From Butyrivibrio sp. NC3005 (GTDB lineage Bacteria; Bacillota; Clostridia; Lachnospirales; Lachnospiraceae), in assembly GCF_000424545.1 (NCBI RefSeq), contig NZ_AUKC01000018.1, positions 1 through 64,000 on the forward strand: a stretch of 64,000 nucleotides of DNA, written 5' to 3'. Below are positions 5,008-16,367 of this stretch, one piece after another (within the stretch, counting starts at the first letter, position 1; the number at the start of each line of letters is the position of its first letter). The translations under genes and the position numbers were made by a program. The notes under the pieces are model-generated. The model was not told where the DNA came from. It saw only the letters and a list, made by a program, of their open reading frames with translations, and searched no databases.

Positions 5008-6281
5008 ATGTATTTTAGAATCTTAAGACGTGATGTGAAGCGAAAGAAAACGATGAATTTCATATTGTTGTTATTCACGATTCTTGCTTCAACGTTTGTA
5101 TCGAGTGGACTTAGCAATGTTGTTAATGTAATGAGTGGTACTGATTATTATTTTGAACAGGCGGGACTAGGTGATTATATTATCATTACACAAAATGGTG
5201 ATGGCAAAGTTGAAAACATATTGGAGAAATCCAAAGAAGTGACAGGATATAAAAAAGAGGAATGTTGTTGGGCATCAAAAGATGATCTTACTGCTAATGG
5301 ACATAAGGTTGAAATGAAGAATAATACATTTTTGATTCAGCCGTTACAGGAAAATGGTCTTAGTTATTTTAATGAAGATAACACGAAGCTTACACATGTA
5401 GATCAGGGTAAGATTTATGTAACAGCAGGTTTTCTTAAAGATAACAATATAGAAGTAGGAGATACATTAAGGCTAACCTTCAACCAAAAGACTTTTACTT
5501 TTGATATTGCAGGTGAAATCAAAGATGCGCTCCTTGGTTCCGTTATGATGGGAAATACAAGATTTATCATAAGTAACGAAGATTACCAAAGGTATACAAG
5601 TGACTCTAAAATAAAAGACTATAAGGGATGCATCTATAATATTGATACAGATGATGTAAAGATTCTTATCAATGATATAGCTGACGTAGAAGGTGTATTA
5701 TTTGCTGACGGAAAAGATGTTATAAAAATCTGCTACATTATGGAAATGATTGTAGCCATGATAGTACTAATCCTTAGTGTCTGTCTGATTATAGTATCTT
5801 TTGTACTTTTAAAGTTTGTAATAGCATTCTCTATTAGTGAAGAGTATCGTGAAATTGGCGTGATGAAGGCAATTGGAATAAGTAATTTCAAGATAAGAAG
5901 CCTTTATATGATTAAGTATCTTGTTATGGCACTTCTCGGAGGACTTCTAGGTTTTCTTATTGGAATTCCATTTGGAAATATTCTGATACAGTCAGTGTCT
6001 CAAAAGATGATTTTAGGTAATGAATTTGGAGTATTGTTAAATGTAACAGGTTCAGTTTTTGTAGTTATCATAATGAGCTTTTTTGCATATCTTTGCACAG
6101 GAAAGATAAAAAAAGTTACACCTGTAGATGCAATTAGAAGTGGACAAACAGGTGAAAGATACGACAAAAAAATGATGTTTCCTCTTAGAAAATCTGTTTT
6201 GGGTAATGCTGTGTATATGGCAGTAAATGATGTTGTAAGTTCGCCCAGACGTTTCTTTACAATTATTATTTCGTTCTTTTT
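5008..6281 (+). pseudogene. Truncated FtsX/MacB-type ABC transporter permease
   Basis: The first about 424 codons encode an ABC permease of the FtsX-like type: an N-terminal helix, an extracytoplasmic domain (about residues 45-240), then three helices around the EYREIGVMKAIGIS coupling motif (about 280-295). Full-length relatives continue with a second membrane block, but here the family sequence stops at about codon 424 (SPRRFFTIIISFF). The same open frame runs on to 6375 with about 30 residues that are out-of-frame ATPase sequence. The break coincides with the entry into the ATPase fragment that follows, so I read it as a deletion junction. A truncated membrane protein may still be made. 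Confidence 0.8.
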
Positions 6282-6845
6282 GATGGAAAAGATATATCAA
6301 AGCTTTCTTCAAAGGAACTTGCAGATGTACGACTTAACAAGATGGGATTTATTTTCCAGCAGATGCAAATGTTGAAGAATCTTACAATAATGGATAATAT
6401 CTTGATTCCTGCTATGGAGAAAAATGATAAAAGAAAAGAAAGGCGCCAAAAAGTCAAAAGAGCAGAAGAACTTTTAAGAAAATTATCTATTATCGATGTT
6501 GCTGATAATGATATCAATGAAGTGTCAGGAGGCCAGCTCCAAAGAGCGTGTATCTGTAGAAGTATGATTAATAATCCGAAGATTATTTTTGCAGATGAGC
6601 CTACAGGAGCACTTAACAGGACTGCATCAACAGAAGTAATGGATGAACTTGTTAAGCTTAACAATGAAGGAACTACTATCATGATGGTTACGCATGATCC
6701 GAAGATTGCTGCAAAATGTAAAAAGGTATTCTATATTGTGGATGGTAATATCAAAGGTGAATACGAAAATGTTACTAATGAGCATACCTCTGAACAGGAT
6801 AGAGAGCGAAGATTGAATAACTGGCTCATGGATCTTGGCTGGTAA
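6282..6845 (+). pseudogene. ABC transporter ATPase, 5' half deleted
   Basis: From 6282 the reading frame shifts to DGKDISKLSSKELADVR and then KMGFIFQQ, the typical Q-loop region of a MacB/LolD/BceA-type ATPase. It continues through the signature VSGGQLQRA, Walker B (IIFADEPTG) and the H-loop (MMVTHD) to a normal C-terminus. The Walker A/P-loop and about 70 upstream residues are missing, and no start codon with a Shine-Dalgarno precedes it; the first ATG in frame is 6342. ATP binding should be lost. The junction with the permease lies at the TTTTTGATGG stretch (6277-6286). Original gene order cannot be deduced from this window. Confidence 0.8.
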
Positions 6846-6925: not shown

Positions 6926-7061
6926 ATTTTTTGTTCAGAAAAGATAAGGATGCTGCCTGTAAGTTAAATGATTTAAGCGTCATAAGTGTTTCTAATCTTT
7001 GGTGCCGATGTCATAATCATGGCAGTAATATAAGTAAGAGGGAATTCGGAGGATTAGAACA

Positions 7062-7424
7062 ATGTCAAGCATTATAACAGAATCCCAGCATTTTAATAAT
7101 GAGATTCCGTTTTGTACGGTTTATTCTTTAAGAGATAAAAAAGAGTTAGAGCGTATTTTCCTAAAACATCGCATTTCCTATTATCTTGATTGGCAAAAAC
7201 AATCTTTATGGCAGAAAATTTTTGGTGGACGTAAGGGATCCGATAGAATTAATTGCCTGGTTAAGATTAATAGAGCGGATGTCGAACGTGCAAGAGAACT
7301 TGTTAAGAACATTACTGGTCTGAAAATGAAAGAACTTATCGGAAACACAGAAAATCGTCAGGTTACAAAGAGAGCTCTGATGGATGAAGAGATGGATCTT
7401 GATAAGGAAGATGAAGAAATGTAA
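7062..7424 (+). CDS. Conserved hypothetical protein, possibly DUF2007-like
   Basis: A 120-residue soluble protein of unknown function. Residues about 15-90 (FCTVYSLRDKKELERIFLKHRISYYLDWQ and then VKINRADVERARELV) have the alternating pattern of small ferredoxin-like domains in which one chain element pairs with a shallow helix. DUF2007 is a possible match, but this is a guess from pattern. The last 20 residues are very acidic. CGGAGG 12 bp before the ATG supports the start. It is a single transcription unit with its own promoter (6897-6925) and terminator (7494-7563). Confidence 0.65.
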   Translation: MSSIITESQHFNNEIPFCTVYSLRDKKELERIFLKHRISYYLDWQKQSLWQKIFGGRKGSDRINCLVKINRADVERARELVKNITGLKMKELIGNTENRQVTKRALMDEEMDLDKEDEEM

Positions 7425-7493
7425 TTATTCTAGGAAGATGATTTTTAAGAGCTGAAATTCTTGAATGATTTTGTAGGAGTAATTATCAAAAGG

Positions 7494-7563
7494 GTCTGTA
7501 TGGGAGGAATAGTGCTATCTTTAGACAAGTGATAGCAGCTTTTGTTCATACAGATCTTTTTTT
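7494..7563 (+). terminator. Branched intrinsic terminator
   Basis: The outer stem GTCTGTATG (7494-7502) pairs with CATACAGAT (7547-7555), an inner hairpin TGCTATC/GATAGCA (7513-7519 with 7531-7537) sits inside, and seven T residues follow. The fold is more elaborate than a simple terminator. It ends the 7062 gene and precedes the rRNA methyltransferase. Confidence 0.7.
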
Positions 7564-7638
7564 GAGCTATAAATAATAAAATGGTACTTTTTTAGATAAA
7601 TGTAATGTTAAACTCCTTTGAAAGGTGGATATAGTAGA

Positions 7639-8994
7639 TTGGAATTTAAGAATAATAATAGAAAAAATATCGTAAATAAGACAGGGGTTGCTTCAAATAA
7701 ACCTAAGAAAAATAAGAACTTTGCAGGTAAGCTTCCAGAAAACCAAAAATCTTTAAGAAAGTTTTCTGATAATAGAAAACCTTCAGGTAAGATTCAGGAT
7801 AATAGAAAAACTGAAGGCAAATCTTTTGAAAAAGGTAAAAAAGAATCTAAAGCATTATGTCCTGTATTTAATAAATGTGGTGGCTGTCAGCTTCTTCACA
7901 TGCCGTATAACAAACAGCTTGAGTGGAAACAGAAAAGAGTGCAGGAGCTAATCGGAAACATCTGTGAGGTTGAATCGGTTATTGGAATGAAAGAGCCTGA
8001 CCATTACAGATGTAAGGTTCATCATGTCTTTGGCCATGATAGAAAAGGAAATGCTCTTCATGGAATTTATCAGGAAGGCTCCCATAAAGTTGTTCCTATT
8101 ACAACATGCCTTCTTGAAGATAGAAAAGCAGATGAGATAATCGAAACGGTACGAAGTTTGCTTAAATCATTTAAAATAAAAACATATGATGAAGACTATG
8201 GACAGGGACTTCTTAGACATGTTCTTATCAGAATAGGTAAGAATAGTGGACAGGTTATGGTGGTACTTGTTGTATCAAATCCTATTTTTCCATCAAGCAA
8301 AAACTTCGTGAAGGCACTTGTAGAGAAACATCCAGAGATAACAACAATTGTTTTGAATGTTAATGATAAGCATACAAGTATGGTGCTTGGTGATAAAGAA
8401 AAGCCTATTTATGGAAAAGGGTATATAACTGATGAAGTATGCGGAATGACTTTTAAAATTTCTCCTAAATCGTTTTATCAGGTAAATCCTGTACAGACCG
8501 AAAGACTTTATAGTAAAGCAATAGAGCTTGCAAAACTAAAAAAGACTGATGTAGTTATGGATTGTTACAGTGGTGTAGGTACTATCGGAATCATCGCATC
8601 GCCTCATGTTAAAGAAGTTATTAGCGTAGAGCTCAATAAGGATGCTGTAAAAGATGCTATCTGGAATTCTAGGGCAAATAATGCCGAAAACGTTACTTTC
8701 TATAATAACGATGCTACAAGATTTATGGCTCAAATGGCAGAAAGTAATGATAGAGTTGATGTAGTTATTATGGATCCGCCAAGAAGTGGTGCTACAGAAG
8801 AGTTTCTTAAGTCCTTGTTTGAGCTTGCTCCGGAAAGAGTATCTTATATTTCCTGCTCGCCAGATACACTTGCAAGAGATTTGAAAATTATGGTCAAGAA
8901 TGGTTATAAGGTAGAGAAAGTAGTACCGGTTGATATGTTTGCTTACACAAAGTCGATTGAAACAGTAGCGGTTTTATCTAGAATAGGTGACTAA
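7639..8994 (+). CDS. rlmCD: 23S rRNA (uracil-5-)-methyltransferase, RlmCD/RumA family
   Basis: SAM-dependent methyltransferase that makes m5U in 23S rRNA. The iron-sulfur cluster ligands Cys74, Cys80, Cys83 (CPVFNKCGGC) and Cys157 are present. So are the SAM motif VMDCYSGVGTIG, the MDPPRSG motif, and the nucleophile Cys406 in SCSPDTLARD. The open frame extends to 7618, but AAAGGTGG (7621-7628) points to TTG 7639, giving 451 residues. The first 70 residues are Lys/Asn-rich with a repeated NRK-type motif and replace the TRAM domain common in relatives; they could serve as a basic RNA-binding tail. Which uracils are modified cannot be told from sequence alone. Confidence 0.88.
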   Translation: MEFKNNNRKNIVNKTGVASNKPKKNKNFAGKLPENQKSLRKFSDNRKPSGKIQDNRKTEGKSFEKGKKESKALCPVFNKCGGCQLLHMPYNKQLEWKQKRVQELIGNICEVESVIGMKEPDHYRCKVHHVFGHDRKGNALHGIYQEGSHKVVPITTCLLEDRKADEIIETVRSLLKSFKIKTYDEDYGQGLLRHVLIRIGKNSGQVMVVLVVSNPIFPSSKNFVKALVEKHPEITTIVLNVNDKHTSMVLGDKEKPIYGKGYITDEVCGMTFKISPKSFYQVNPVQTERLYSKAIELAKLKKTDVVMDCYSGVGTIGIIASPHVKEVISVELNKDAVKDAIWNSRANNAENVTFYNNDATRFMAQMAESNDRVDVVIMDPPRSGATEEFLKSLFELAPERVSYISCSPDTLARDLKIMVKNGYKVEKVVPVDMFAYTKSIETVAVLSRIGD

Positions 8995-9344: not shown

Positions 9345-12300
9345 ATGCATAAGAAAAAGTTAGGTTTAACATCTTTGCTTATGGCAGAAATGTTGCTTAC
9401 TACAACTGTAGGGACAGGGGTTACAAACGTCTATGCAGCTGAAAATGAGTCAAATGTAAGCGCATCTGAATCTGAAGAAAAAGAGGAGAAGTCAGATTCA
9501 TCAGTCGAATCAGAAAGTACTAAAGAAGGGGAAGACAATCCTGAAAAGTCAAATGATGCAGGAAATGGTTCTACCAGTGAAGAAGCAGGGGGCAAATCCG
9601 GGGAGAAGGATAACGACAAGACAAGTGATAACGAAGAAAAGAAAGAAGAAAGTAATTCAGGAAGTGATAACAGCGAAGAAGCTGCTAGCAAAGAGGAGGG
9701 TGTAGAGAACAAGGACAAAGAGTCTAAAGAAAAGGATAAGGAACAAAAAGACGACGTCAAGAAGGATGAGGAAAAAGAGGATAAAAAGGAAGAAGGTAAC
9801 AAAGACGAGAAAACTATAAGATACTCGGCTGATGAGCTCGATGTAAGTTTTCGTTGGGGCAGTGAGAAAGCTGAAAATGGAGTTATGAAATTCCCAAGTC
9901 AGTATTATGAGTATCTTGTAAAGATTCCTAAGAAGTATTCTTTTAATGAAATCGAAAACATTAAAGTTAAAATGAAGGATCAGGATGGAAAGCTTTGCTT
10001 TAAGTACTATGGAACTGAGGAAAAGCCTACAAAAGAAGATAAGTCTGTAAAAGAGACTTATGATAATTTTGGTAAGGAAGAATATGACATAAATATTGAG
10101 GATGATGCTTCATTTACATATCTTGGAATTATGTCTGTAGATGAATTTGGTGAGAAGACACCGACAGAGTTTGCAACCTTGGTAGGAATAGAGATAAAAC
10201 TCAAAGATGATGTTAAGAAAGATGATGAAAATTCCAAGATTAAGCATATCATCTACACTAAGGATGATATGGAATTTATGGATACCTGGTCTAAAGAAGC
10301 ATATGATGGCGGTAATGTTTTAAAGTTTGAGAAAGACTGGCAAGAGTATTGCTTCAAATTAAAAGAACCGTTAAATGCGGAAAGAATTAACAGCATTAAG
10401 ATTAAAGTTAAAGATCAGGATGCGACTGTTGCATTTAAGCTTTATGATGAAACACAAGGTGAAGATGGTAAATATAAAGAACTCCTAGCTGAATATGGCA
10501 AAAAAGGTCAGAAGGAATATGTTCTTAACCCATCTGTAGACGGTAAGGTGACACACTTTGCTATTATGGCTATGAATAGTAACACCTATCCATGCGGAGT
10601 TACTATCGAAAGTGTAGAATTTGAATATGATACAACGCCTGTTGATGATACTGTGAAAAAAGGTGTAGAGTATGATATTCCAAATCTTAGAGATAAGATG
10701 TGCGCAGTTCTTGGTGATGACTTTATCGTAGGAACCGCAATTAGTTATCAGGAATTTGCTGATAATATGGAGATGGAACTTGTAACAAAACATTTCAATG
10801 GTGTAACTCTTGGAAATGAGCTTAAGCCTGATTCTATGCTTAGAAAAGATGCTGAGCTAGAGGATGTTACTCTTAATGGTCATACTTTCAAGTTTCCTAA
10901 GTTGAACTACGAAACTCCTGAAAGATATCTTGATTTCTTTGTAAAATGGAATAATGAGCATCCAGATAAGAAGATTCGTATAAGGGGACACGTTTTAGTA
11001 TGGCACAATCAGACTCCAGAGTTCTTTTTCCATGAAGACTATGATCTTGGTAAGCCGTTTGTAACTCCAGAAGTTATGAATCTTCGATTGGAGTATTATA
11101 TAAAGAGTGTCGCACAGCATTTCACATCCGAGGGTAGCAAATACAAGGATATGTTCTATGGATGGGATGTTGTTAATGAAGCTGTGAGTGATGGAACAGG
11201 CACTTATAGAAATGACAATGAAAACTCAAAATGGTGGGCAGTATACAAGAGCCCTGAGTTCATTAAGAATGCCTTCGTATATGCTAACAAATATATGCCA
11301 AAGTCTATTGCTCTTTTCTACAATGATTATAATGAAACAATGGAGAGTAAAACCAAGGGTATATGTCAGCTTCTTACAGATGTAAAGAATACTGAAGGGG
11401 CTAGAATTGATGGTATGGGCATGCAGGCTCATTACCAGATAACATCCAATTCTCCATCTATGGAGCAATTCAAAAAGTCTGCACGTGCATATGGCAAGAT
11501 TGTAGGACAGGTTCAGGTTACTGAGCTTGACTTCAAGGGAAGTGCCAACTCTAAAGATGAAAGACTTGCCCAGAGATATAAAGATGTTTATGACACCATT
11601 AGACGTTTGAGAAATGAAGGCTGCAATATTACAGGTATGACAATCTGGGGAGTGGTAGACAAGCATTCATGGCTTCAGACTCAGAACAGTGCAGGAGGAG
11701 GATCTACAGATAATAGCCGACAGTATCCGCTTTTGTTTGACAACAATTATAAGGCTAAAAATTCTTTCTATGCCCTTGCAGATGCAGGCGAGTTAGAGCC
11801 GGAGATAAAGAGTGTTCGTCTTGTTCAGATGCTCGAAGAAGACTATAGTGTAGGTGAAAACTATAGCTTTAATAAGGATGGCGGAAATGTTTCATTTACT
11901 CCTATGTGGAGCACTGATGGATTAAATGTAAAGGTTAAAGTTCCAGATAATTCTTTTGATAGTCAAGACTCTGTAACTTTATTTGCATCGGATTCTGATG
12001 GTATTAAGCAGGTAACTGTAAGCAGAAAAGACGCAAAAGAAGTAAACGGTGGCTATGAGGCAGAACTTAAGCTTTCTGTTAATGGAAAGTCTCTTTCTTC
12101 AAATGAAGTAAAGATGGATGTGCTGGTAAATGATAATGGCAATAAGTCAGCATTTAATGACACAACCTTTAATCAGGCAAGTAGTAACAAGTTTTTTGCA
12201 GAAACAACCGTTAAACCTCTTCTTAATGTTCAAAAGGGAAGTGTTTTAATAGACGGCAAGATTGATGATAAGGACTGGGATAAGGCAGAAGAAGTTCCAC

Positions 12301-13562
12301 TTACCATCAATGTTGGTTCAAAGGTTAGTGCCAAGGCAAAACTTTTGTGGGATGAGGAAAATCTCTATGTTCTTATGAATGTTAAAGATGATGTTCTCAA
12401 CAAGGATTCTTCACAGAATCATGAGCAAGATTCTATTGAAGTATTTATAGATGAGAATAACCATAAGACTTCTTCCTATGAAGATGATGACAAACAGTAT
12501 CGTATTAATTATGAGAACAAACAAAGTTTTAATGGTAAAAAGTGTGTAGAAGAAAATGTAAAGTCAAGCGCAGTTGTTACCAAAGATGGTTATATGATTG
12601 AGGCTGCATTCAAGTGGACTGATATTAAGCCTTCTAATGGCACTGCTGTTGGTTTGGAACTTCAGATTAATGATGCTGATGGCAGTGGTAAGCGTATTGG
12701 TACACTTAGCTGGAGTGACAAGACAGGTAATGGCTGGTCTTCAACTTCAGTATATGGAACAATTTGCCTTAAGGATGGAATTGTTATCCCTCCAGAACCT
12801 TCGAAAGATACACCTAAAGAAGATGAGAACAAGGATAAGCCGGCAAATGGTGGTGGTAATAAAACTCCATCAAAAAGTGGTAATGGTGGGAACGAATCAG
12901 GAAACAGTGGAAGTAGTTCAACATCAGGAAACATATCAACAGGAAGTGATACAACAAGAAGTACATCGACAGGCAGTACATCAACAACTTCTAACAAAGC
13001 TGCGGCTGCTAAAAAGAATACTACAACTGTAAGTAAAGCATCTGCAAATGCACCTGCAAACAATGGAGAAGTACTTGGTGTAAGAAAGAGCGGCGATTCA
13101 GATTCTGTATACAAAAATACTGGAAAGGTTTCTTCTAGGAATACAAAGAAGAGTTCTAAAACAGGTAAAAAGACAAGAATAAACGCAAGGAAGAATTCTT
13201 CTAAGGTTACACTGGCGGAAAATAAGACTACAGAAGAAGTAAAAGAAGTTACAGAAGAAGAAAACCTTGAAGTGGCTGTTAATGAAGAAGATACGAACAA
13301 GGAGGAAGTAAACGAATCTGCATCTTCTGAGAATGAAAATGCTGAAGAAACAAAGAAATATGAAACAAGTGCTGATACATCTTCTGAAACTTCAAAGGAC
13401 GATGCGAAAGAAAATGTAGAAGAAAAGAAACCTGAAGATGAAAACGCAGCAAAGGAAAATGAAAAGTCAAGTGTTCCTGTAGCACCAATCGCAGGAGGAA
13501 CCGGTGCTGTAGCACTTGTAGCTATTATTTCAGCTATTCTTAAAAAGAAAGGTATTTTTTAA
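9345..13562 (+). CDS. Giant envelope-anchored GH10 endo-xylanase with CBM9 modules
   Basis: Secreted endo-1,4-beta-xylanase of 1405 residues. A signal peptide (about 1-33, VYAA) is followed by a charged low-complexity stretch (34-156). Two copies of an unrecognised module of about 130 residues come next (157-292 and 299-435), sharing an IKVKxKDQD core. The GH10 barrel covers about 438-815, with acid/base Glu612 (WDVVNEA) and nucleophile Glu727 (VTELDF). A degenerate CBM9-like part follows (about 816-955), then a complete CBM9 (about 966-1143). The tail is a Ser/Thr/Gly linker, a Lys-rich and then a Glu-rich segment, and one C-terminal membrane helix ending in KKKGIF. It therefore stays on the cell surface without an LPXTG signal. 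GGGAAGGGG precedes the ATG. Role: attack on plant xylan. Confidence 0.95.
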   Translation: MHKKKLGLTSLLMAEMLLTTTVGTGVTNVYAAENESNVSASESEEKEEKSDSSVESESTKEGEDNPEKSNDAGNGSTSEEAGGKSGEKDNDKTSDNEEKKEESNSGSDNSEEAASKEEGVENKDKESKEKDKEQKDDVKKDEEKEDKKEEGNKDEKTIRYSADELDVSFRWGSEKAENGVMKFPSQYYEYLVKIPKKYSFNEIENIKVKMKDQDGKLCFKYYGTEEKPTKEDKSVKETYDNFGKEEYDINIEDDASFTYLGIMSVDEFGEKTPTEFATLVGIEIKLKDDVKKDDENSKIKHIIYTKDDMEFMDTWSKEAYDGGNVLKFEKDWQEYCFKLKEPLNAERINSIKIKVKDQDATVAFKLYDETQGEDGKYKELLAEYGKKGQKEYVLNPSVDGKVTHFAIMAMNSNTYPCGVTIESVEFEYDTTPVDDTVKKGVEYDIPNLRDKMCAVLGDDFIVGTAISYQEFADNMEMELVTKHFNGVTLGNELKPDSMLRKDAELEDVTLNGHTFKFPKLNYETPERYLDFFVKWNNEHPDKKIRIRGHVLVWHNQTPEFFFHEDYDLGKPFVTPEVMNLRLEYYIKSVAQHFTSEGSKYKDMFYGWDVVNEAVSDGTGTYRNDNENSKWWAVYKSPEFIKNAFVYANKYMPKSIALFYNDYNETMESKTKGICQLLTDVKNTEGARIDGMGMQAHYQITSNSPSMEQFKKSARAYGKIVGQVQVTELDFKGSANSKDERLAQRYKDVYDTIRRLRNEGCNITGMTIWGVVDKHSWLQTQNSAGGGSTDNSRQYPLLFDNNYKAKNSFYALADAGELEPEIKSVRLVQMLEEDYSVGENYSFNKDGGNVSFTPMWSTDGLNVKVKVPDNSFDSQDSVTLFASDSDGIKQVTVSRKDAKEVNGGYEAELKLSVNGKSLSSNEVKMDVLVNDNGNKSAFNDTTFNQASSNKFFAETTVKPLLNVQKGSVLIDGKIDDKDWDKAEEVPLTINVGSKVSAKAKLLWDEENLYVLMNVKDDVLNKDSSQNHEQDSIEVFIDENNHKTSSYEDDDKQYRINYENKQSFNGKKCVEENVKSSAVVTKDGYMIEAAFKWTDIKPSNGTAVGLELQINDADGSGKRIGTLSWSDKTGNGWSSTSVYGTICLKDGIVIPPEPSKDTPKEDENKDKPANGGGNKTPSKSGNGGNESGNSGSSSTSGNISTGSDTTRSTSTGSTSTTSNKAAAAKKNTTTVSKASANAPANNGEVLGVRKSGDSDSVYKNTGKVSSRNTKKSSKTGKKTRINARKNSSKVTLAENKTTEEVKEVTEEENLEVAVNEEDTNKEEVNESASSENENAEETKKYETSADTSSETSKDDAKENVEEKKPEDENAAKENEKSSVPVAPIAGGTGAVALVAIISAILKKKGIF

Positions 13563-13587: not shown

Positions 13588-13610
13588 TATAATAGTTTCA
13601 TAATATGGAA
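13588..13610 (+). promoter_or_regulatory. Promoter -10 and operator of the iclR gene
   Basis: A perfect TATAAT (13588-13593) has only a weak -35 upstream. The half-sites TTTCA (13596-13600) and TGGAA (13606-13610) lie 5 bp apart across the predicted start of transcription. The same TTTCA-N5-TGAAA layout occurs before the aldolase gene (14551-14565), which points to autoregulation. Confidence 0.6.
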
Positions 13611-13655
13611 GTATATTTTATTAATACACTTAACTTATGGAAGGAAAAAATCATT

Positions 13656-14444
13656 TTGGCTAATGAAAAGATAAAAAAGGCTGATAAAAATCCTATTCAG
13701 GTAGCTGACAGGCTTTTTAAAACTTTAGAGTTTCTTGCTTCTAGAAAAGAGTCAGGACTTATGGAAGTTGCAAGCGCAATGAAGCTTAATAAAAGTACTG
13801 CTCATAGAATTCTGACTTCACTTGAATATATGGGTTATGTGAAACAGAGTAAAGAGAATGGAAAATATTTTCTTACGATGAAGATTGTGGAGCTATCTGG
13901 GCTTGTCATGAGCAGAGTTGACATAATAGGTATGGTTAGACCGCACTTGGAGAAGCTTATGGAAACAACAGGTGAGACGGTTCATTTTGTTAAAAGAGAC
14001 GGAAATGAAGCAATCTACATCGATAAGGTTGAATCACATCAGAACTCTATTCAAATGATTTCACACATTGGAAGTAGAATTCCGCTTTATTGTTCAGGTG
14101 TAGGAAAAGCTATGGCAGCGACTTTTAGCAATGAAGAAGTAAGAGATGTGTGGAAGAGCAGCAGGATAGTCAAGCTGACTCCTCATACTATAACCGATTA
14201 CATGGATTTTGAAGAGGTTCTCGACAGGATTAGAAAGCTTGGATATGCAATGGACGATGAAGAAAACGAATTAGGTGTAAGGTGCATTGCAACAGATTTG
14301 TCTTCGAATGGAAAAAGTGCAGAATATGCATTTAGCATTTCTGCACCCGTTTCGAGGATGGATGAGAAAAGAATTAGTAAGCTCTCTGAATATATGCAGA
14401 GAACAAGGCAGGATATATTAAAAGATATAGGTGGACTATTATAA
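13656..14444 (+). CDS. IclR family transcriptional regulator, KdgR-like
   Basis: Repressor-type regulator with an N-terminal winged helix (about residues 12-75; MEVASAMKLNKSTAHRILTSLE) and a C-terminal effector-binding IclR domain (about 85-255). I start it at TTG 13656 (262 residues). The ATG at 13605 would sit about 5 nt after the predicted transcription start without a ribosome site, whereas GGAAGG (13639-13644) serves the TTG. It lies directly upstream of KDPG aldolase and KDG kinase genes. Operator half-sites of the KdgR type occur at both promoters. The likely effector is 2-keto-3-deoxygluconate or a related pectin or uronate breakdown product; this is inference. Confidence 0.87.
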   Translation: MANEKIKKADKNPIQVADRLFKTLEFLASRKESGLMEVASAMKLNKSTAHRILTSLEYMGYVKQSKENGKYFLTMKIVELSGLVMSRVDIIGMVRPHLEKLMETTGETVHFVKRDGNEAIYIDKVESHQNSIQMISHIGSRIPLYCSGVGKAMAATFSNEEVRDVWKSSRIVKLTPHTITDYMDFEEVLDRIRKLGYAMDDEENELGVRCIATDLSSNGKSAEYAFSISAPVSRMDEKRISKLSEYMQRTRQDILKDIGGLL

Positions 14445-14447
14445 ACA

Positions 14448-14488
14448 CAAAAAACTCCTTACTGATAATCATCGGTGGGGAGTTTTTG
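14448..14488 (+). terminator. Intrinsic terminator after iclR
   Basis: An A-rich/T-rich stem (CAAAAAACTCC with GGAGTTTTTG) closes over a loop of about 20 nt. The A and T arms would let it work on both strands. It separates the regulator from the strong promoter of the aldolase. Confidence 0.7.
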
Positions 14489-14490
14489 TA

Positions 14491-14518
14491 TTGACATCAT
14501 TAATTAAAGTAATATAAT
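14491..14518 (+). promoter_or_regulatory. Consensus sigma-A promoter of eda-kdgK
   Basis: A perfect TTGACA (14491-14496), a 16-bp spacer and a perfect TATAAT (14513-14518). Transcription should start near 14525. A promoter this strong next to three operator half-sites fits repression by the adjacent IclR regulator. Confidence 0.85.
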
Positions 14519-14540
14519 TAATAACAGTTATACCATAATA

Positions 14541-14565
14541 TGAAATATAGTTTCACAATATGAAA
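14541..14565 (+). promoter_or_regulatory. KdgR-like operator with three half-sites
   Basis: TGAAA (14541-14545), TTTCA (14551-14555) and TGAAA (14561-14565) are each separated by 5 bp. The first pair matches the known enterobacterial KdgR box layout TGAAA-N5-TTTCA; the second pair is the layout seen before the iclR gene. The site lies about 16 bp after the predicted transcription start and overlaps the upstream in-frame ATG at 14560. Confidence 0.75.
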
Positions 14566-14580
14566 CTAAAAGGAGAATGT

Positions 14581-15219
14581 ATGAACGCAGTACTTGAAAA
14601 GTTTGAGAAGATTGGTATTATTCCTGTTGTAGTTTTAGATGATGCAAAAGATGCAAAGAAGCTTGGAGAAGCTCTTATGAAGGGCGGACTTCCGGCAGCT
14701 GAGGTGACATTCCGTACAGAGGCAGCAGAAGAGTCTATTAGAATTATGTCTGAGAATTTCCCTGATATGCTTGTTGGTGCAGGAACTGTACTTACAACAG
14801 AACAGGTTGATAGAGCAGTTAATGCTGGGGCAAAGTTTATCGTAAGTCCTGGATTTAATCCTAAAGTTGTTAAATATTGTATCGAAAAGAATATTCCGGT
14901 AACACCTGGTACACAGACACCTTCTGAAATGGAACAGGCTATTGAGATGGGTCTGGACGTAGTGAAGTTCTTCCCGGCAGAGCCTGCTGGTGGTCTTAAG
15001 ATGATCAAGGCAGTCTCTGCTCCTTATACAATGCTTAAATTCATGCCTACAGGTGGAATTAGTGCAGATAATGTAAGAGAATATCTTAAGTTTAACAAGA
15101 TTCTTGCATGCGGCGGAAGCTGGATGGTTAAGAAGGATATGATTGTTAATGGTGAGTTTGACAAGATTGAGGAGCTTGTTGCACAGGCTGCTGCAATAGT
15201 TAAAGAAGTTCGCGGATAA
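14581..15219 (+). CDS. eda: KDPG/KHG aldolase (2-dehydro-3-deoxyphosphogluconate aldolase)
   Basis: Cytosolic class I aldolase that splits 2-keto-3-deoxy-6-phosphogluconate into pyruvate and glyceraldehyde 3-phosphate, the last step of uronate and pectin catabolism. The Schiff-base lysine is Lys129 in VVKFFPAE, with the upstream active-site AEVTFRT and GAGTVL motifs and the phosphate-binding MPTGGI loop. The 212-residue length is standard. The start is ATG 14581, because AAAAGGAG (14567-14574) is correctly spaced for it; the upstream ATG at 14560 lies inside the operator. It is followed after 44 bp by KDG kinase, which supplies its substrate, so the two form an operon. Confidence 0.95.
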   Translation: MNAVLEKFEKIGIIPVVVLDDAKDAKKLGEALMKGGLPAAEVTFRTEAAEESIRIMSENFPDMLVGAGTVLTTEQVDRAVNAGAKFIVSPGFNPKVVKYCIEKNIPVTPGTQTPSEMEQAIEMGLDVVKFFPAEPAGGLKMIKAVSAPYTMLKFMPTGGISADNVREYLKFNKILACGGSWMVKKDMIVNGEFDKIEELVAQAAAIVKEVRG

Positions 15220-15263
15220 AATAATAGTTATTTGTAATAAAAAGGCAAAATTGGAGAAGGAAT

Positions 15264-16367
15264 ATGAAAGTTGAACTTAATTTAAGAGCAAAAGAAGATT
15301 GCAAATTTGATGCAGTATCATTGGGAGAGGTTATGCTTCGCCTTGATCCAGGCGAAGGCAGAATCAGAACTGCAAGAAGTTTCAGAGCCTGGGAAGGCGG
15401 CGGAGAATATAATGTTATAAGAGGTCTTCATAAGTGTTTTGGTATGGATACAGCCGTTATTACATCTTTTGCAGATAATGAAATCGGTAAGCTTATGAAA
15501 GACTTCATTGAACAGGGCGGTGTTGACACTTCTCTTATCAACTGGAAGAAGACAGATGGAATCGGAAGAATTTGCCGTAATGGTCTTAATTTTACAGAAA
15601 GAGGATTTGGCATTCGTGGTGCAGTAGGCTGTTCGGATAGAGCAAATACTGCAATTTCTCAGGCAAAGCCAGAGGACTTTGACTTTGATTATATTTTTGG
15701 TGAGCTTGGTGTTCGTTGGCTTCATACAGGCGGAATCTATGCAGCTTTGTCCGAGCAGGCAAGTGAGACTGTTGTAGAAGCTATTAAGACTGCAAAGAAA
15801 TACGGAACAATTGTGTCTTACGATCTTAACTATCGTCCATCTATGTGGAGCGCAATCGGCGGACAGACAAAAGCTCAGGAAGTTAACAGAGAAATCGCAA
15901 AGTATGTTGATGTCATGATTGGTAATGAAGAAGACTTTACAGCATGCCTTGGTTTTAAGATTGAAGGTAATGATGAGAATTTAAAGAGTCTTAACATCGA
16001 TGGATATAAGAAGATGATTAATGAAGCAGCAAAGACATATCCTAATTTCAAGGTTGTTGCTACAACACTTCGTACAGTTAAGACAGCTACAGTTAATGAT
16101 TGGAAGGCAATGTGCTGGGCAGGTGGAGAAATCTTTATGTCTAACGAGTATCCAGGCCTTGAGATCATGGATAGAGTAGGTGGCGGTGATTCATTCGCAT
16201 CTGGTCTTGTATATGGTCTTATGACAACAGCCAATCCTCAGATGGCTGTAGATTATGGAGCAGCTCACGGAGCACTTGCAATGACAACACCTGGGGACAC
16301 TTCTATGGCATCCAAGGAAGAAGTTGAAGCTATTATGGGCGGTGCTGGAGCAAGAGTTAAGAGATAA
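15264..16367 (+). CDS. kdgK: 2-keto-3-deoxygluconate kinase (PfkB family)
   Basis: Sugar kinase of the PfkB/ribokinase family. It phosphorylates KDG to KDPG, the substrate of the aldolase encoded just upstream. The second PfkB signature, GGGDSFASG, holds the catalytic base Asp309. The sugar-side motif is GEVMLRLDPGEGRIRTA near the N-terminus, and DLNYRPSMW (about residues 190-198) is characteristic of KDG kinases. At 367 residues it is slightly longer than many relatives. The assignment to KDG rather than another ketose acid rests on family resemblance plus the eda neighbour. No clear terminator follows. Confidence 0.92.
   Translation: MKVELNLRAKEDCKFDAVSLGEVMLRLDPGEGRIRTARSFRAWEGGGEYNVIRGLHKCFGMDTAVITSFADNEIGKLMKDFIEQGGVDTSLINWKKTDGIGRICRNGLNFTERGFGIRGAVGCSDRANTAISQAKPEDFDFDYIFGELGVRWLHTGGIYAALSEQASETVVEAIKTAKKYGTIVSYDLNYRPSMWSAIGGQTKAQEVNREIAKYVDVMIGNEEDFTACLGFKIEGNDENLKSLNIDGYKKMINEAAKTYPNFKVVATTLRTVKTATVNDWKAMCWAGGEIFMSNEYPGLEIMDRVGGGDSFASGLVYGLMTTANPQMAVDYGAAHGALAMTTPGDTSMASKEEVEAIMGGAGARVKR

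Follow-up and report, generated by a model that had tools for sequence, protein, structure and literature searches.

The two repeated modules that precede the GH10 domain of a xylanase from Butyrivibrio sp. NC3005 are CBM86 modules, as judged by homology at the sequence level and by the fold of predicted models. The xylanase gene lies in a stretch of 64,000 nucleotides (contig NZ_AUKC01000018.1), the whole of which is referred to below as the window. It is very probable that the CBM86 pair fronts a secreted, probably membrane-anchored GH10 endo-xylanase, where it most likely holds xylan at the cell surface. An apparently unknown module now has a place in a family whose founding member is a xylan-binding module of solved structure. 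CBM86 has already been published as an annotation in Butyrivibrio, which is stated to encode it in the excerpt of PMC12855155, and the pair adds a family member, not a family. The coordinates of all features are listed in Table 1.

Table 1. Features of the xylanase in the window, and stalk-like proteins with CBM86-like modules in other records (position preceded by the record handle)
Feature	Residues	Position	Strand	Basis or remark
Multimodular GH10 xylanase gene		9345..13562	+	ORF with ATG start, 1405 aa; Pfam GH10 and CBM9_1
Probable signal peptide	~1-31	9345..9437	+	By eye: KKK, hydrophobic core, YAAE
Charged linker	32-155	9438..9809	+	Residue count
Upstream CBM86 module (diverged copy)	156-295	9810..10229	+	6sgf matches; limits from 30-module profile
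Downstream CBM86 module (less diverged copy)	301-435	10245..10649	+	6sgf matches; limits from 30-module profile
GH10 xylanase domain	458-813	10716..11783	+	Pfam PF00331, E 4.4e-66
Weak CBM9-like stretch	889-953	12009..12203	+	PF06452, 18.2 bits, under the 23.4 cut-off
CBM9 module	969-1144	12249..12776	+	PF06452 (CBM9_1), E 7.2e-54 for the protein
Hydrophobic segment and basic tail	1380-1405	13482..13559	+	By eye; probable membrane anchor
Stalk-like protein		L031:5506-10485		CBM86-like modules near N-terminus
Stalk-like protein		L032:6011-11992		CBM86-like modules near N-terminus
Stalk-like protein		L033:1546-3627		Runs off contig end
Stalk-like protein		L086:2245-4794		Runs off contig end
Stalk-like protein		L087:2-5416	-	Runs off contig end
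Stalk-like protein		L088:1492-14487		One head detected
Stalk-like protein		L089:2455-8349		Runs off contig end

Duplication of the module and its assignment to CBM86

A reading of the sequence alone (hereafter the sequence-only reading) had proposed a duplicated module at residues 157-292 and 299-435, and the duplication was confirmed by BLASTP, which aligned the two copies with an E value of 1e-15 (34 of 112 positions identical). The local alignment score between the copies was 156, a value reached by 0 of 2000 shuffles (mean 35.2, sd 6.4, maximum 65). The proposed module limits were close to those set by a profile of 30 modules, both window copies among them. The core strings quoted in that reading were recovered by string search (FKYY at residue 219 and FKLY at 364; FTYLGIM at 257 and VTHFAIM at 402; VGIEIKL at 280 and IESVEFEY at 421), but the exact form IKVKxKDQD is found in the first copy only (IKVKMKDQD at residue 206), the downstream copy having IKIKVKDQD at residue 351. 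Its nucleotide range, 9813-10650, begins correctly with residue 157 but extends one base beyond the end of residue 435. When profiles of the upstream and downstream module types were built separately, they matched one another with 99.8% probability.

A phmmer search of the pair against PDB sequences identified entry 6sgf with an E value of 1.7e-10, the best stretch being in the downstream copy. This entry is RiCBM86, the CBM86 module of the Roseburia intestinalis GH10 xylanase RiXyn10A. The next match, a VPS13 chain at 0.11, was taken as chance. The upstream copy alone also matched 6sgf (3.9e-4), which was its only match up to E 10. The 13-row upstream-type profile retrieved 6sgf at 6.2e-18, followed at 0.14 by NBR1 chains that were likewise taken as chance, and the 12-row downstream-type profile retrieved it at 3.2e-17, with the next match at 2.6.

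AlphaFold2 models of the two copies, built from the window, L034 and L035 sequences only, had pLDDT values of 87.2 (upstream) and 92.2 (downstream). The best Foldseek match for both models was again 6sgf (2.2e-8 upstream, 3.6e-11 downstream), and alignment to it with VIA gave Z 15.4 with rmsd 2.4 for the upstream copy and Z 16.6 with rmsd 2.2 for the downstream copy, each over 124 aligned residues. Identity to 6sgf is low, at 28 of 118 positions (24%) and 31 of 117 (26%), respectively. Three features expected of a CBM86 module were found for both copies, namely significant resemblance in sequence to 6sgf, on which the family was founded, a predicted beta-sandwich of the RiCBM86 type, and attachment to a xylan-acting enzyme, here the GH10 domain on the same protein.

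The modules had seemed novel because Pfam and NCBIfam gave no match there. A Pfam scan of the whole protein found GH10, CBM9_1 and a third, chance-level row inside GH10, leaving residues 157-435 without any match, and the module part scanned alone returned a single chance-level match (DUF6864, E 0.071). NCBIfam returned only GH10-driven and low-complexity matches, with none for the two modules. These results favour the new carbohydrate-binding family that the sequence-only reading had put forward, but with the strong CBM86 sequence matches, the wide gap to the next match and 6sgf as the best fold for both copies, far ahead of any other, a new family is highly improbable and that proposal was not sustained. 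The outcome named there as refuting it, placement in an existing CBM family by a standard search, was obtained from the searches of solved structures but not from Pfam or NCBIfam, exposing a gap in the coverage of CBM86 by these two collections. Even less probable is that the modules are CBM22 or CBM4 modules diverged past recognition, although their location before the GH10 domain would suit such modules and CBM22/CBM4 entries do appear lower down in the VIA lists. Residues 34-181 of 2wys, presumably a CBM22 module, scored Z 9.3 with the upstream copy and 9.1 with the downstream copy, for which 4xup (8.7), 4xun (8.2) and 3p6b (8.2) were also listed. However, these values of 8.2-9.3 compare with 15.4 and 16.6 for 6sgf, a gap of about 6 to 8 Z units. 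In addition, the Pfam CBM_4_9 model, which covers CBM22 and CBM4, gave no match in the whole protein, where matches were listed to E 10 although the HMMER filters discard most of those above about 0.1, or in the modules, where the limit was E 1. The view of the sequence-only reading that the modules are of a carbohydrate-binding type other than CBM22 agrees with the CBM86 match in sequence and predicted fold, with the absence of the CBM22 profile and with the low ranking of CBM22 folds.

Other families were considered for the modules and rejected. A separate scan of the module part, with a limit of E 1, gave no CBM9_1 match. Several families, CBM29, CBM15 and CBM11 among them, are neighbours in fold alone. 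CBM29, the next family in VIA (Z 10.5 upstream, 11.7 downstream), and CBM15 are polysaccharide-binding and provide the next best folds at Z about 9 to 12, but they lie at least about 5 Z units under 6sgf, share 8-14% identity and were not found by sequence.

Architecture of the xylanase and proposed role of the pair

The 124 residues of the charged linker that follows the probable signal peptide include 33 E, 22 K, 20 S, 14 D and 11 N. A motif search located WDVVNEA (E612) and TELD (E727) in the GH10 domain; E612 is likely the acid/base and E727 the nucleophile. The weak CBM9-like stretch sits between GH10 and the clear CBM9 module, which is separated from the C-terminal hydrophobic segment by a low-complexity linker. 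An LPXTG-type motif, searched for as LP.T[GAS], is absent from the protein. From the signal-peptide-like start, the order of the modules and the C-terminal hydrophobic segment, the enzyme is read as a surface xylanase, and we infer xylan binding, avidity and anchoring for it.

At the cell surface, beside the GH10 active site, the CBM86 pair and the C-terminal CBM9 would keep xylan in place, whether soluble or in the plant wall. One CBM86 site would bind weakly, and a second copy may add to the overall hold by avidity while release stays fast, such that chains could slide to the GH10 site while two weak sites and CBM9 keep hold. The affinity in the CBM86 structure paper is reportedly about 0.5 mM. 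A value of 480,000 for xylohexaose, the unit of which is not given there, is stated for the Roseburia xylanase CBM86 in a table of the review PMC11122601; if in nM, this equals 0.48 mM and would fit the affinity above.

In the excerpt of PMC6385246, RiXyn10A is a known surface endoxylanase. RiCBM86 shares sequence family and predicted fold with the window modules, and its GH10 protein also carries CBM9. However, the R. intestinalis genes carry CBM86, CBM22, GH10 and CBM9 according to the excerpt of PMC11913394, whereas the window protein has two CBM86 modules and no CBM22 recognised by Pfam, the place before GH10 being occupied by the second CBM86. No description of a tandem CBM86 arrangement was found among the open-access literature matches listed, including the excerpt of PMC6344614 on Butyrivibrio CAZymes.

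Directly downstream of the xylanase gene and on the same strand (13605-16367) are genes for an IclR regulator, a KDPG/KHG aldolase and a PfkB kinase, a set presumably of Entner-Doudoroff/hexuronate type and not an obvious xylan locus. Elsewhere in the window, at 5008-6845, an ORF for an FtsX-type permease runs into an ABC-ATPase ORF in a different frame. Only from position 62 of the 137 in its profile onward is the ABC-ATPase matched, the first part being missing, and these ORFs look like a degraded transporter pair.

The tandem pair in Butyrivibrio and the age of the duplication

Of 61 genomes from the genus, 15 had a match (12 of the 35 near-complete ones), as had 8 of 397 in a sample of the family and 1 of 398 in a sample of the phylum, the window's own genome being counted in each and being the only one in the last. 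A single-sequence search of contigs recovered 2 relatives only, and an alignment query would reach further. Each of the 15 matching genus genomes has one ORF of 672-1460 residues with at least two CBM86 copies, and these together with L034, a goat-abomasum Butyrivibrio record, make up 16 tandem proteins. Pfam identified GH10 in all 16 and CBM9_1 in 14, the exceptions being L025 and L028, whose open frames stop ahead of the CBM9 place.

The tandem-CBM86 GH10 xylanases other than that of the window (L022-L030, L034, L035, L090-L092 and L094) have both CBM86 copies, with GH10 in 15 of 15 and CBM9_1 in 13 of 15. Choline-binding-type wall repeats score above the Pfam cut-off in seven of them (L024, L027, L029, L034, L091, L092 and L094), and the L023 xylanase (6949-8136, minus strand) has three CBM86 modules, two of the upstream type, and a Cadherin match under the cut-off. 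In contrast, the window protein has no match to choline-binding-type repeats or Cadherin and ends in the hydrophobic segment.

An unrooted tree was built from 44 rows, leaving out L093 (a duplicate of L035), L033, L053, L054, L055 and L086-L089. One branch (support 96/91) sets the 16 downstream copies apart from the upstream copies, and 15 of the 16 upstream copies share a group with the middle copy and with two modules from stalk proteins (support 99/98). The upstream copy of the window is on a branch of 1.69 and its placement is not robust, with 28% the highest identity to any other row. Forcing the 17 upstream and middle rows together, without the stalk rows, cost 0.04 log-likelihood units (p-AU 0.415), so that this grouping is neither rejected nor demonstrated. 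With the stalk rows included, the upstream label needs 4 changes, partly because the stalk modules nest inside the upstream type and the window upstream copy lies outside it. As the downstream copies group together and apart from the upstream copies, the duplication is most likely older than these species. In this genus CBM86 is thus used as a tandem pair of probably old origin, whereas Roseburia combines CBM86 with CBM22.

The long branch of the window upstream copy, which exceeds the end branches of all other xylanase modules, raises the question of whether this copy has lost xylan binding or changed its ligand, leaving only the downstream copy to grip xylan. The upstream copy would then be a spacer or a second specificity, for example for a xylan with other decorations or for a different glucan of the wall. 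It is only 20-28% identical to other upstream copies, whereas the downstream copy is 31-44% identical to its own type, and of the 13 columns in which a single residue is shared by 75% or more of 44 aligned modules it keeps 9 (6sgf keeps 11), with M, I, S and I at L326, L339, E379 and P396. However, it retains all of the eight invariant or near-invariant columns that had been chosen in advance on the xylanase modules in alignment A5 (W315, E334, K365, Y367, Y384, G388, Y392 and M408 in downstream numbering), as does the downstream copy, while 6sgf has 7 of the 8, with Q for E334. The predicted fold is also kept (Z 15.4), and loss or change of ligand in this copy is considered unlikely. It is also unlikely that the upstream type has lost its function in general, because the end branches of the other 16 upstream-type rows (0.16-0.71) are comparable to those of the downstream rows (0.05-0.98). 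A pair in which both copies hold xylan remains the preferred reading.

CBM86-like modules on stalk proteins and other carriers

CBM86-type heads were also found outside the window on stalk proteins, a part of the distribution that a specialist might not expect. Seven long alanine-rich proteins with CBM86-like heads are encoded in 6 of the 15 matching genus genomes (G011, G019, G020, G036, G458 and G476), and no further CBM86-like match was found in the window's own genome at the sensitivity used. The stalk proteins have a signal-peptide-like start (by eye), then one or two heads (a single one detected in L088, a complete or partial pair in each of the other six), then an alanine-rich stretch of a few hundred to several thousand residues. 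Counted per 100 residues of stalk, alanine usually makes up 16-49%. It falls to 9-10 in L031, to 9 where the stalk of L088 begins and to 2-12 towards the end of both L032 and L088, one L031 stretch entering the count as near zero. Pfam recognised an enzyme domain in none of the seven. At the end of L032 is a BspA-type LRR-like stretch that is under the Pfam cut-off and has a weak PDB match to a cell surface protein (0.0015).

A profile of nine stalk heads, built without xylanase modules, retrieved 6sgf from the PDB at 9.4e-9 and matched the xylanase-module profile at 99.6%. The remaining PDB matches, which include HIV gp120 and penicillin acylase at E 0.047 and worse, were regarded as chance. 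This profile did not include the heads of L088 and L089, which score weakly (17.8-23.7 bits), and the module scores of L087-L089 (17.8-30.9 bits) need care because of their alanine-rich composition. L055, L087 and L088 were recovered only with the HMMER bias filter off.

For the two stalk proteins included in the tree, the first module groups with xylanase modules of the upstream type, while the second lies beside the downstream type, on long branches with weak support, as if one ancestral pair had passed between enzyme and adhesin. Tentatively, the CBM86 pair may be a xylan-capture head shared within the genus that also tops alanine-rich stalks in which no enzyme domain is recognised, as non-catalytic xylan adhesins, a reading judged less likely than not. 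Such adhesins would hold the cell to the plant wall. Nothing on these proteins was found among the open-access literature matches listed.

Further carriers of CBM86-like modules occur in other genera of the family. They comprise polysaccharide deacetylases (L049:2-1498 and L052:4836-6191, the latter on the minus strand), a DUF5057 protein (L054:5307-10298, minus strand) and single-module GH10 enzymes (L047, L048, L050 and L051). L055 encodes a GH10-CBM9 protein with one weak CBM86-like module (28.0 bits).
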